This document shows, piece after piece, positions 22,352 to 25,611 of a stretch of DNA of 64,000 nucleotides. Within the stretch, counting starts at the first letter, position 1. Each line of letters starts with the position of its first letter. The translations under genes were made by a program, and so were the position numbers. The notes beneath the pieces are model-generated. The model worked only from the letters and a program-made list of their open reading frames with translations. It did no database searches and had not been told where the DNA came from. Source of the DNA: Sinomonas sp. R1AF57 (GTDB taxonomy: Bacteria; Actinomycetota; Actinomycetes; Actinomycetales; Micrococcaceae); the NCBI RefSeq assembly GCF_002224485.1, contig NZ_CP022463.1, positions 1,138,644 through 1,202,643 of the forward strand, in the 5' to 3' direction.

Positions 22352-22687
22352 ATGGGTGAGGGCATCCGTGAGACGGGACGGCGGCGGGCGCGCCTGACGG
22401 CCATGGCGGTCGGCGCGGCAAGTGCCGTCGCCGCGGGCGCCGTCGCGGCAGCCGTGTACATTCCGGCCGCGCAGGCAGCATCGACGACCGTGGGCAGCAC
22501 GACCGGTTCGGACGACGGAAGCGGGTCCGGCGGGTACTCGGAGGAGGGGCCCCAGGAGCATTCGGGCCCGGGAACCCAGAGCCACCGGTCGCCGGGCTCG
22601 AGCTCCAGCTCCGGAAGCCAGCAGTCCCAGCAGGGGCTCCGCCCCTCGCGCGGCGGCGGCGCCGTCGGCCATTCCATGGGGTCCTGA
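22352..22687 (+). CDS. Small Ser/Gly-rich secreted or anchored protein
   Basis: A 111-aa protein that I do not recognise. Residues 1-15 are basic and 16-42 are hydrophobic with an AQA-like signal peptidase site. The rest is a low-complexity Ser/Gly/Gln tail. It has AGAGGAGG before the ATG and ends 1 bp before the ApbE gene, so it heads the redox operon. In comparable actinobacterial operons this place is often taken by an FMN-binding protein that ApbE flavinylates. No SGAT-type flavinylation motif or FMN-binding domain is visible here. Confidence 0.7.
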   Translation: MGEGIRETGRRRARLTAMAVGAASAVAAGAVAAAVYIPAAQAASTTVGSTTGSDDGSGSGGYSEEGPQEHSGPGTQSHRSPGSSSSSGSQQSQQGLRPSRGGGAVGHSMGS

Positions 22688-22688
22688 C

Positions 22689-23615
22689 GTGGCAGCTGTC
22701 GCGGACTTCGAGGCGTTCACCTGTGCGTGCCGCCTGGCCGTCACGGACCCCGCCGCTCTCGGCCCCGCCCTCGCCCACGTCCAGGAGTTCCTGGGCCGGG
22801 TCGACCAGGCCGCCAGCAGCTTCCGCCCCGACTCGGAGCTCAGCCGGGTGCAGCGCGCCGGGGGAGGGGCGGTGACGCCGCTGCTGGCGAGCCTGATCCG
22901 CACTGCGCTCGACGCCGCTGACCGCTCCGGGGGCGCCGTCGTCCCGACACTGGGCTGCGAGCTGATCGATCTGGGCTTCGGGCCGCCACGGGAGGACGCT
23001 CGCGCGGCGGCCGGCCCGACGGTGTCCACCCGCCCGCTCCCCGCGGAGAGCTGGCGGCAGGTCACGCTCGACGCCGGCGTGCTCGCCATCCCGCCGGGCG
23101 TCCGCCTCGACCTCGGCGCCACGGCGAAGGCGGCGGCGGCCGACCGGGCGGCGGCGGAAGTGCACGCCCGCTTCGGCACGTCCGTCCTCGTCTCCCTCGG
23201 CGGGGACCTCGCCACGGCGGGCGACGCCGCGTGGGAGGTGCTCGTGCAGGACCTTCCCGCCGACCCCGCATGCCAGGTGAGCCTGGCCGGCGGCTGGGCG
23301 ATCGCGACGTCGAGCACGCAGAAGCGACGGCGGCGCTCGGGGACGCTCGAGGCGCACCACATCCTCGACCCCATGACGGCCCTTCCCGCCCCAGAGGCCT
23401 GGCGCAGCGTCACGGTGGCGGCCCCCGACTGCGTCAGCGCGAACACGGCGAGCACCGCCGCCGTCGTGCGCGGGACTGCTGCTGTCGCATGGCTCCGCGG
23501 CCTGGGATACCCCGCGCGCCTCGTGCGGGCAGACGGCGACGTGGTGGAGCTCAACGGCTGGCCCGCCGACTCCGCGGACCACCGGCCGTCCCTCGCGGCA
23601 GGGGCGCGGCGATGA
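22689..23615 (+). CDS. apbE: FAD:protein FMN transferase, ApbE family
   Basis: A 308-aa flavin transferase that links FMN to Thr or Ser of extracytoplasmic proteins. Motifs present are SSFRPDSELSRVQ (about 37-49), the DLGATAKAAAADRA stretch, VSLGGDLATAG, HHILDPMTALP and a final VTVAAPDCVSANTASTA, which carries the Mg/flavin residues. No lipobox or signal peptide is seen, so it may act in the cytoplasm or be exported with a partner. The GTG start is 1 bp after the preceding stop, and the gene overlaps the next by 4 bp. Confidence 0.9.
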   Translation: MAAVADFEAFTCACRLAVTDPAALGPALAHVQEFLGRVDQAASSFRPDSELSRVQRAGGGAVTPLLASLIRTALDAADRSGGAVVPTLGCELIDLGFGPPREDARAAAGPTVSTRPLPAESWRQVTLDAGVLAIPPGVRLDLGATAKAAAADRAAAEVHARFGTSVLVSLGGDLATAGDAAWEVLVQDLPADPACQVSLAGGWAIATSSTQKRRRRSGTLEAHHILDPMTALPAPEAWRSVTVAAPDCVSANTASTAAVVRGTAAVAWLRGLGYPARLVRADGDVVELNGWPADSADHRPSLAAGARR

Positions 23616-24166
23616 ACGAAGTCCTGTGGGCCTTCGGCCGGGCGAGCGGGATCGTCTCCCTCGCGCTGCTCACCGCCGTGCTCGTCCTGGGCATCGTGAG
23701 CCGCTCGGGGCGTCCGCTCGCCGGGCTTCCGCGCTTCTCGGTGGCGCTCGTCCACCGCAGCACCGCCCTGACCGCCGTCACGTTCCTGGTGCTGCACGTT
23801 GGCACCCTCATGCTCGACCCGCATGCGAAGCTCGGCCTGGGCGACGCCGTCGTGCCCTTCCTGGCGGGCTGGAACCCGTTCTGGGTGGGACTCGGCACGA
23901 CGGCGTTCGACCTCGTGGTGGCCCTCGTGGTGACGGGACTGCTGCGCCACCGGTTCGGGCAGCGGGCCTTCCGGGCCATCCACTGGGCCGCCTACGCCCT
24001 CTGGCCGGTCGCGTTCGCCCACGCGCTGGGCTCGGGGACCGACGCGGGGTCGCTGTGGTTCCAGGCCTACGCGTGGGCCTGCGCCGGGGCCGCGGCATCC
24101 GCCGTGCTCTGGCGCCTCAGCGCGGGATTCGCGGAGACTGCCGCTGCACGGTTCGGGCGGGTGTGA
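23612..24166 (+). CDS. Ferric-reductase-like di-heme membrane protein
   Basis: A 184-aa protein with five to six hydrophobic helices. Four histidines, His48, His62, His124 and His137, form two pairs 14 and 13 residues apart. This is the spacing that holds two b hemes in ferric reductases, NOX enzymes and MsrQ. No FAD/NAD domain is attached, so electrons must come from a partner, probably the NuoF-like and ferredoxin proteins encoded next. The ATG overlaps the ApbE stop. Confidence 0.88.
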   Translation: MNEVLWAFGRASGIVSLALLTAVLVLGIVSRSGRPLAGLPRFSVALVHRSTALTAVTFLVLHVGTLMLDPHAKLGLGDAVVPFLAGWNPFWVGLGTTAFDLVVALVVTGLLRHRFGQRAFRAIHWAAYALWPVAFAHALGSGTDAGSLWFQAYAWACAGAAASAVLWRLSAGFAETAAARFGRV

Positions 24167-24172
24167 GCGTGC

Positions 24173-25387
24173 ATGACTGAGACGGCTCTCGGACTGCCGG
24201 CCCTGGGCACCGGACGGCTCTTCGCGTCCGCCGGCCCGGACCTGGCAGCCCATGAGGCAGCCTACGGCCCGCGGAGGACCGGCTGGACCCGCGAGGCGCT
24301 GCTCGCGGAGCTCGAGGCATCGGGTCTCGCCGGGCGCGGAGGCGCCGGATTCCCCGCCTGGCGCAAGCTGTCCTCGCTCGGAGCGCGGCGCGCCGTCGTC
24401 GTGGCCAACGGCGCCGAGGGCGAGCCGCTGAGCCGCAAGGACGCCGCGCTCCTGACGGGGGCGCCCCACCTCGTCCTCGATGGTCTCCTCACAGCGGCCG
24501 AGGCGCTGAACGCGTCGCAGCTCTTCGTCTACGCGCCCGCGGCATCGCTCGCGGGCGTGGCCGCCGCCCTGGCCGAACGCCGCGACGGACGGCGCATCTC
24601 GCTCGTCGAATCGCCGGGGACGTTCGTCTCCGGCGAGGCCAGCGCGGTCGTCTCGGCGCTCGAGACGGGGCTCGCCCTGCCGCGGGACAGCGCGGCGCGC
24701 CTGACCACCGCGGGGTACCGGGGACTGCCGACCCTCGTGCACAACGTCGAGACGCTCGCCCAGCTCGCCCTCGTGGCCCGGTACGGCGCCGACTGGTTCC
24801 GCACCGCAGGGACCGACGACGATCCGGGCACCCGTCTCGTCAGCGTCTCGGGGGACGTGCCGACGCCCCGCGTCGCGGAGGTTCCCGGCGGCACATCGCT
24901 CCGCGACATCCTCCTCGGCGCCGGGGCCGACCCGGGCTCCCTGGCCGCCGTCCTCGTCGGAGGCTTCCACGGCGCCTGGGTGCCGGCGAAGGCCCTGGAC
25001 CGGCGCGCGAGCGCCGCGGGCCTCGCGGACTACGGCGCCCGGCCCGGCGCCGGGGTGCTCCTCGCCCTCGCCGCGGGGCGCTGCGGCCTGGCGGCGGCCG
25101 CACCCATCGCCCGCTACCTCGCCGACGGCTCGGCGCGCCAGTGCGGGCCGTGCACGTTCGGGCTGCCCGCCATGGCGGCCGTCCTCGAACGGATCGCCGG
25201 CGGGGAGCGGAGCCCCTGGCTCGCGGCCGAGGCCGAGCGACTGGCGGGCCTTATCACGGGCAGGGGAGCGTGCCACCACCCCGACGCGACGGCAGGGTTC
25301 GTCCGCAGCACGCTGACGGTGTTCCGGCAGGAGGTGCGTGCCCATCTGAACGGGGACTGCACGGGCACCCGGGGGTGGCAGCCATGA
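24173..25387 (+). CDS. NuoF-like NADH/FMN/Fe-S oxidoreductase subunit
   Basis: A 404-aa relative of the NADH-binding subunit of complex I. GRGGAGFPAWRKL (54-66) is the FMN/NADH glycine loop, NGAEGEPLSRKD (79-90) is the second FMN contact, and a SLBB-like domain lies near 220-300. The Fe-S region has Cys324 and Cys327 (QCGPCTFG) and Cys367 (GACHH). The third cysteine of the NuoF CxxCxxC motif is Gly here, so three ligands remain. It probably takes electrons from NAD(P)H, or gives them to it, in partnership with the ferredoxin that overlaps its 3' end. Confidence 0.85.
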   Translation: MTETALGLPALGTGRLFASAGPDLAAHEAAYGPRRTGWTREALLAELEASGLAGRGGAGFPAWRKLSSLGARRAVVVANGAEGEPLSRKDAALLTGAPHLVLDGLLTAAEALNASQLFVYAPAASLAGVAAALAERRDGRRISLVESPGTFVSGEASAVVSALETGLALPRDSAARLTTAGYRGLPTLVHNVETLAQLALVARYGADWFRTAGTDDDPGTRLVSVSGDVPTPRVAEVPGGTSLRDILLGAGADPGSLAAVLVGGFHGAWVPAKALDRRASAAGLADYGARPGAGVLLALAAGRCGLAAAAPIARYLADGSARQCGPCTFGLPAMAAVLERIAGGERSPWLAAEAERLAGLITGRGACHHPDATAGFVRSTLTVFRQEVRAHLNGDCTGTRGWQP

Positions 25388-25611
25388 GCCGGGAACGCCT
25401 CGCGCTGCACATCGACTTCACGCGGTGCGACGGGCGTGGCCTCTGCACCGAGCTGCTGCCCGAACTCCTCGTCCGCGACGACTGGGGCTACCCGCTCGGA
25501 CGCGGCGGCCGGGACGTGCCGGTTCCCTCCGGGCTCGCCGGGGCGGCGCAGGACGCCGTCTCACTGTGCCCGGTGCAGGCCCTGAGGCTGCGGTCGGCCG
25601 GACGGGACTGA
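25384..25611 (+). CDS. 3Fe-4S-type ferredoxin
   Basis: A 75-aa ferredoxin. Cys15, Cys21 and Cys62-Pro give the CX5C...CP pattern of small actinobacterial 3Fe-4S ferredoxins, with the residue at the missing fourth ligand being Gly. The ATG overlaps the upstream stop (ATGA). It ends the redox operon and converges on the SGNH hydrolase with 12 bp between them. It is likely the soluble shuttle between the NuoF-like protein and the membrane di-heme protein. Confidence 0.9.
   Translation: MSRERLALHIDFTRCDGRGLCTELLPELLVRDDWGYPLGRGGRDVPVPSGLAGAAQDAVSLCPVQALRLRSAGRD

Follow-up and report, generated by a model that had tools for sequence, protein, structure and literature searches.

What does an ApbE-type enzyme modify when no FMN-binding domain is encoded beside it? 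The question is raised by a compact operon in the window, i.e., the whole stretch of 64,000 nucleotides (nt) from Sinomonas sp. R1AF57 that was analysed here (contig NZ_CP022463.1, positions 1,138,644 to 1,202,643 of the forward strand), the genome being one contig of 3.94 Mb. Calling of open reading frames (ORFs) placed five genes in order on one strand (+) over 22352-25611, encoding a small protein of 111 amino acids (aa), an ApbE, a ferric-reductase-like membrane protein, a NuoF-like protein and a small ferredoxin. A preliminary description of the locus had given this content, which was borne out by the ORFs and by Pfam. It had also left two possibilities, that the target of ApbE is encoded elsewhere or that the small protein is itself a reduced or new kind of acceptor, and the latter suggestion is favoured here because of a widely conserved C-terminal motif. 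Judged from sequence comparisons, the operon's ApbE probably puts flavin mononucleotide (FMN) on the C-terminal Ser of the 111-aa protein, which would be a disordered, membrane-tethered carrier fed by the electron chain of the same operon. The features at issue are as follows (window coordinates).

22352-22687 (+): small protein gene, 111 aa, with an N-terminal membrane anchor and a Ser/Gly-rich linker; candidate flavin carrier.
22664-22684 (+): C-terminal heptad VGHSMGS, putative ApbE recognition site, proposed from the tail motif across the module ORFs.
22682-22684 (+): codon of Ser111, last residue of the small protein and candidate FMN acceptor.
22689-23615 (+): gene of the ApbE-type FAD (flavin adenine dinucleotide):protein FMN transferase, 308 aa, GTG start, Asn subtype, without signal peptide.
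23442-23444 (+): codon of Asn252 of ApbE, aligned with the catalytic/metal Asp of known ApbEs (Asp285 of Vibrio cholerae ApbE).

The absence of an FMN-binding domain from the small protein, already stated in the preliminary description, was confirmed: the protein gave zero Pfam matches at E<=1, and nothing recurrent was found in 30 of the small proteins, which matched eight Pfam families with one member each (best E 0.0029) and 17 weak NCBIfam families with at most five of the 30 members each (CU044_5270 family, best E 0.0041). One of the 30 had a weak NCBIfam match to the flavoprotein PplA (0.031), which was taken for an effect of linker composition. AlphaFold predicted a single low-confidence helix at residues 5-28 and an unstructured remainder. 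Ten Sinomonas homologues agree over their first ~39 and last ~17 residues, with a linker that differs in both length and letters, and the window protein ends in the conserved C-terminus GHSMGS. Beyond the genus the linker could not be aligned, whereas the C-terminus could (HARSFGS, HAQSNGS, HGSSGGS, HGQSRGS, HATTGGS, HGQTGGS). A global alignment of the 30 small proteins was of little use, with a mean column identity of 20% and the last Ser alone invariant.

The small genes were chosen by a rule blind to the tail, which takes the membrane-anchored ORF whose end lies immediately ahead of apbE or, if no apbE is adjacent, of the ferric-reductase gene. Applied to 142 anchors in 138 module loci, the rule gave an ORF for 111 anchors. 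A strict tail, defined as [ST]-x-[GA]-S-COOH, was present on 82 of these 111 ORFs, with 3.4 expected from tetrapeptides inside the same linkers; hand reading raised the number to 84, the rule having taken out-of-frame ORFs at two tailed loci (L097 and L110). In the rest of the fetched DNA the strict tail was found on 45 of 6902 ORFs of at least 60 aa and on 10 of 1013 with a membrane segment. Chance ends of low-complexity proteins are ruled out by these internal-tetrapeptide and background-ORF controls. Comparison across relatives shows that the tail recurs widely among other Actinomycetota, at least one module with a strict tail occurring in 29 of 42 families (L017-L025, with families uncoded, left out). 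Ser stands at position -1 in 92 of the 110 unique tails and Ser/Thr at -4 in 93, the usual pattern being Ser at -1, Gly/Ala at -2, often Gly at -3 and Ser/Thr at -4.

Among the 31 anchors without a chosen ORF, seven were cut by contig ends (L015 at its ferric-reductase gene, L076, L084, L089, L121, L130 and L187), six come from Sinomonas operons that are split or have a changed gene order (L006 and L015, the same gene seen twice, L012, L016, L028 and L029) and seven have no adjacent apbE (L147, L150, L151, L152, L155, L156 and L157). The others are L070, L093, L125, L129, L143, L154, L189, L190, L197, L201 and L203; strict tails are present at L093, L125 and L203, whose ORFs fall short of the hydrophobicity cut. 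At L120 and L126, which were scored as failures, a tail ORF follows the ferredoxin gene. Thirteen partial or weak ferric-reductase-like matches lay outside the fetched locus set, as did part of the matches of a further search.

The tail can be compared with the published ApbE motif, D-x-x-[S/T]-G-A-[S/T], in which FMN is attached to the last residue (PMC12052999). Seven residues are reported to be enough for ApbE, flavin-tags to work best at protein termini, and the Asp of the motif to matter little; moreover, flavinylation reportedly drops by half with the changes Gly-to-Ala and Ala-to-Val, and Ser reportedly accepts FMN less well than Thr does (PMC12052999). The tails line up with this motif in such a way that the acceptor falls on their final residue. 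For example, the small protein of L117 ends in DSNTGAS, an exact heptad, and its genome (G319) has no FMN_bind gene; near-heptad ends are HGMSGAS (L128) and DASSNAS (L134). The core [ST]GA[ST] followed by 0-1 residue was found in 4 of 111 tails (L117, L104, L128 and L195) against 7 of 7925 internal linker positions, none of which has the full heptad. Similarly, His occupies -7, the Asp place of the heptad, in 26 of the 82 strict tails, compared with a frequency of 1.1% in the linkers. The window tail VGHSMGS keeps Ser108 and Ser111, i.e., an acceptor Ser/Thr with Ser/Thr three residues before it, and we think from its letters that it is a degenerate ApbE motif. The earlier statement that no SGAT-type motif is present therefore probably needs correction, since the degenerate one in the conserved C-terminus GHSMGS is widely conserved in the phylum.

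The enzyme itself belongs to the ApbE family of Pfam (4.5e-43). Its model has a pLDDT (predicted local distance difference test) of 88.3, and its 39 best matches in the PDB are all ApbEs, with template-modelling (TM) scores of about 0.7-0.8. Ser208 and His224 are kept. In the alignment, Asn252 stands opposite the Asp of the Treponema pallidum Ftp chains, which we take to be Asp284, and the active-site/metal Asp is thus absent from the window ApbE. For ApbE an Asp-Ser-His catalytic triad has been proposed (PMC12052999). In the active-site region of 110 module ApbEs, Ser (109), His (110) and Lys (110) are kept, while the Asp column is Asn in 83, Glu in 24 and Asp in 3; the Asp-type cases (L189, L190 and L201) have no strict tail. 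Asp was always found in 19 comparison ApbE frames of the FMN_bind-linked kind (window's genus only, one gene sampled twice).

An ApbE-centred survey covered 91 frames in 90 loci, a subset of the ApbE matches that overlaps the module set. A neighbouring FMN_bind gene was found for 45 of 58 Asp-type ApbEs (genus-built profile, E<=1e-3) and a tail ORF for none of them; on the other hand, 20 of 32 Asn/Glu-type ApbEs have a tail ORF and none has an FMN_bind neighbour. One further frame (L294) has Leu at the Asp column, probably by misalignment, and has a tail ORF. Fisher P values for this segregation of subtype and substrate are 4e-12 and 6e-14, with kinship ignored. The association, as seen in these sequences, appears strong but few-event. 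A distant Glu-type branch of ApbEs (AEVWSK[AS]; L223, L224, L226, L229, L232 and L263) was also observed, with weak ferric-reductase and NuoF matches and with tail ORFs, e.g., HTKTGAS, in three of the six loci.

The remaining genes of the operon supply the electron chain, and the electron-transfer idea of the preliminary description was judged right.

23612-24166 (+): gene of a ferric-reductase/MsrQ-like di-heme membrane protein, 184 aa, assigned from Pfam and four invariant His.
24173-25387 (+): gene of a NuoF-like protein for reduced nicotinamide adenine dinucleotide or its phosphate (NAD(P)H), FMN and Fe-S, 404 aa, assigned from Pfam, a glycine-rich motif and five conserved Cys.
25384-25611 (+): small ferredoxin gene, 75 aa, assigned from Fer4_15 and three invariant Cys.

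The 184-aa protein matched Ferric_reduct (1.3e-9), the 404-aa protein Complex1_51K (3.2e-28) and NADH_4Fe-4S (1.5e-16), and the 75-aa protein Fer4_15 (1.5e-11). In the ferric-reductase-like family His 48, 62, 124 and 137 are invariant (15 aligned sequences), from which two bis-His hemes are predicted. The NuoF-like protein has an invariant glycine-rich stretch and five conserved Cys (82 aligned), and three Cys of the ferredoxin are invariant in 68 relatives. The usual NuoF motif is CxxCxxC. The 82 aligned sequences share a CxxC together with two more Cys close to the C-terminus and one Cys before, while an invariant Gly stands in for the third Cys of the NuoF motif. The flanking genes of the operon are the same in Sinomonas cellulolyticus, the closest named relative, and no recurrent terminal electron acceptor was found among ten flanking proteins scanned.

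Matches to the ferric-reductase-like protein turned up in 10 of the 15 Sinomonas genomes and in 95 of 394 genomes sampled from the class Actinomycetes, some of the latter without an adjacent apbE. The protein recurs mostly with the same neighbours and the gene set is therefore not due to chance; the module is real and widespread. On plasmids of Rhodococcus qingshengii and Cnuibacter physcomitrellae (L205 and L206) it is adjoined by a VIT-family iron transporter gene and a two-component system. The small proteins of these plasmids end in HARSAGS and HATTKGS, and their gene is either 'hypothetical' or missing from the gene table in the two annotated records. Together with the association of VIT1 reported for MsrQ-like systems, the VIT-family gene makes iron a clue to the acceptor.

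The mechanism that we infer may be described as follows, the cofactor content being read from the protein families. Electrons from NAD(P)H would enter at the NuoF-like protein, move on to the ferredoxin, cross the membrane by way of the two hemes of the ferric-reductase-like protein and finally reach an FMN outside, the whole serving as a one-way transmembrane wire. The operon's ApbE would link this FMN by a phosphoester bond to Ser at the C-terminus of the small protein, whose N-terminal helix would anchor that protein in the membrane. The disordered linker could act as an arm that takes the flavin to and fro from the heme protein to an acceptor outside, perhaps Fe(III). FMN addition may take place in the cytosol and be followed by export of the carrier, possibly by the twin-arginine translocation (Tat) pathway. 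Cytosolic addition and possible Tat export are suggested by Arg-Arg ahead of the membrane segment in 62 of 82 strict-tail small proteins and by the tight spacing of the two genes, the stop of the small gene lying within 75 nt of the ApbE model start in 67 of 72 cases, with little or no room for an ApbE signal peptide. Flavinylation, topology, order of electron flow and final acceptor are all parts of this proposal.

Several observations weigh against an FMN carrier of this kind. Of the 111 chosen ORFs, 29 are without the strict tail (two of them wrong picks of the rule), extra residues after the Ser are frequent in f40 members, two Asn-type loci (L113 and L114) do not fit, and no small ORF is in view at L070. 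Four members of family f93 (L182, L184, L186 and L188) end in Cys-containing tails (e.g., PSGNVRCY) beside Asn-type ApbEs, possibly a third tail type, and the small proteins of f44 (L141, L143, L145 and L154), adjoined by Glu-type ApbEs, have a Cys and then a YGYVLTQV-like end. The window tail has neither the Asp nor the Gly and Ala of the motif, and hence not the full heptad. In the survey no tail was in view for 5 of 20 Asn-type and 7 of 12 Glu-type ApbEs. Moreover, a tree of the ApbEs shows only about four changes between Asp and Asn/Glu, and with so few independent events the P values overstate the association. The replacement of the catalytic Asp by Asn means that the ApbE activity could be changed or lost. 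Finally, the lack of a signal peptide on ApbE requires either that FMN is attached while the carrier is still in the cytosol or that ApbE itself is exported in some unrecognized way.

The tail could be another recognition or processing signal (docking to the ferric-reductase-like protein, protease recognition or another modification), its likeness to the ApbE motif being coincidental. This is unlikely in our estimation, and the loci in which the operon is rearranged bear on it from both sides. In three Sinomonas genomes (G007, G013 and G014), each keeping at least one intact small gene, apbE lies apart from the ferric-reductase, NuoF-like and ferredoxin genes, and the small gene stays with apbE in G013. 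In G007 and G014, as at L071 and L072, it lies beside the ferric-reductase gene and not apbE, which speaks for another role of the tail; the loose fit of the window tail to the ApbE consensus also agrees with such a signal. In G017 the small gene precedes the ferric-reductase gene, an Asn-type apbE accompanied by a ferredoxin gene being found elsewhere, and at L012 and L028 remnants of the small gene's end alone (PSGS and SSGS before the stop) were left after the operon split. In G005 (L006/L015) apbE was observed between two ferric-reductase-like genes, with the small gene before the first. However, seven Streptomyces-like loci that have the ferric-reductase, NuoF-like and ferredoxin genes and no adjacent apbE showed no small ORF with the tail in front of the ferric-reductase gene; six had no tailed ORF with a membrane segment anywhere, and L157 had one overlapping the ferredoxin gene, probably by chance. 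The exact [ST]GA[ST] ends with one exact full heptad, the His at the heptad's first place and the segregation of the tail with ApbE subtype likewise argue against coincidence. Five of these seven genomes have an ApbE elsewhere and two (G237 and G321) gave zero ApbE matches, which suggests that the wire can operate with no flavin carrier.

Alternatively, the operon's ApbE could modify a conventional FMN_bind protein encoded elsewhere, the small protein being an unmodified membrane anchor or assembly factor. The genome search for other FMN-binding-domain proteins that had been recommended was made with PF04205 in the window's own genome, in 15 genomes of the genus and in 75 genomes with the ferric-reductase-like protein. 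The own genome indeed has one FMN_bind gene with a canonical VSGAT site, 2 Mb from the operon, and 30 of the 54 strict-tail genomes that were tested have one or more such genes. The own FMN_bind gene, however, adjoins a second ApbE of the Asp type. The classical cluster to which it belongs, L001 (G000 C1:3164451), encodes a ferric reductase with an NAD-binding domain, an FMN_bind protein whose Ser/Gly/Thr linker is long, and this second ApbE. Within the genus 14 of 15 genomes have an FMN_bind gene, always with an ApbE match no more than about 0.5 kb away and irrespective of whether the module is present. No FMN_bind gene was found in 35 of the 75 genomes with the ferric-reductase-like protein, or in 32 of 68 after omission of seven Streptomyces-like genomes without adjacent apbE (G071, G109 with its locus unread, G145, G205, G210, G237 and G329). 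In particular, 24 of the 54 tested genomes in which a strict tail was read have none, including four single-contig genomes (G244, G040, G052 and G247), and a distant FMN_bind target, one of the two earlier possibilities, is therefore not the general rule. With none of the 32 Asn/Glu-type ApbEs beside an FMN_bind gene, and with the conserved C-terminal motif left unexplained, a target elsewhere seems improbable.

There is a similarly small chance that ApbEs of the Asn/Glu type have ceased to be FMN transferases (e.g., a FAD hydrolase or a flavin-binding delivery protein instead), and that the tail binds flavin non-covalently or acts as the docking peptide of such an ApbE. The Asp of the proposed triad is indeed gone in 107 of 110 module ApbEs, but the Ser, His and Lys of the active-site region are retained as given above, and no position of the substrate is better conserved than the acceptor hydroxyl, 92 of 110 unique tails ending in Ser. 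A frameshifted FMN_bind gene, the case named beforehand as refuting a new acceptor, was not seen, the genus-built FMN_bind profile giving zero matches at E<=1e-4 in the 138 module loci.

If the small protein is the FMN carrier, the missing Asp invites a more tentative suggestion. Asn-type ApbEs may flavinylate the very last residue because its free C-terminal carboxylate replaces the Asp as metal ligand or base partner, a substrate-assisted reaction that would give a 'flavin on a string' without a binding domain; we regard this as possible, though doubtful. It is consistent with the strict Ser-last tail in 65 of 73 Asn-type partners, none with 1-3 residues after the motif Ser, and with such extra residues in 6 of 20 Glu-type partners. 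On the other hand, two Asn-type cases outside that count (L104 and L129) have one residue after the motif Ser/Thr, and a C-terminal Ser is also found in 12 of the 20 Glu-type partners.

Were the carrier confirmed, some 'orphan' ApbEs would have a substrate, the want of which is an acknowledged gap: genomes with 'orphan apbE', with substrates unidentified, account for 4% of the genomes of one published survey (PMC8238504). A flavin would then work in transmembrane electron transfer without a binding domain, tethered like a swinging arm, and a one-residue signature of ApbE (Asp versus Asn/Glu) would predict the kind of substrate. Short C-terminal tags with their matching transferase could also serve as a tool. 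Within the open-access literature searched (supplements and most subscription papers lying outside it), no report was found of an acceptor of this domain-free, C-terminal kind, nor of ApbEs with Asn/Glu at the Asp position. This suggests that the carrier type and the ApbE subtype are new within that literature, while the frame of MsrQ-like protein, apbE and NuoF-like protein has already been described.

In that description, MsrQ-like systems consist of a PF01794 six-helix di-heme protein and apbE and occur mostly in Actinobacteria; 31 of the clusters have a NuoF-like protein, VIT1 iron transporters lie near some, and an FMN-binding-domain gene is typically included (PMC8238504, Meheust et al. 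2021). The present clusters share the PF01794 di-heme protein with four heme His adjoining apbE, and the NuoF-like protein, the 31 published clusters being compared by description only. They differ in having no FMN-binding-domain gene and, as candidate carrier, a disordered protein ending in the tail. The known ApbE substrates include FMN_bind, DUF2271, DUF3570, Flavodoxin_4, FMN_red and NqrB/RnfD domains (PMC8238504; PMC11334425), Flavodoxin_4 and FMN_red being later additions, with the FMN_red site on an unstructured C-terminal extension next to the flavin-binding site (PMC11334425). In those substrates the acceptor Ser/Thr ends a [S/T]GA[S/T]-like motif, as the putative acceptor does here; there, however, the flavin serves a folded domain, whereas the present protein is domain-free and its putative acceptor is the last residue. 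Compared with canonical ApbEs (PF02424; T. pallidum Ftp, V. cholerae ApbE and Listeria monocytogenes FmnB), the module ApbEs have the same fold and the same active-site Ser and His, but Asn/Glu in place of the triad Asp, no signal peptide and a proposed substrate with a free C-terminal carboxylate. In the engineered flavin-tagging peptides seven residues suffice and termini are best (PMC12052999), and the present tails would be their natural counterpart.

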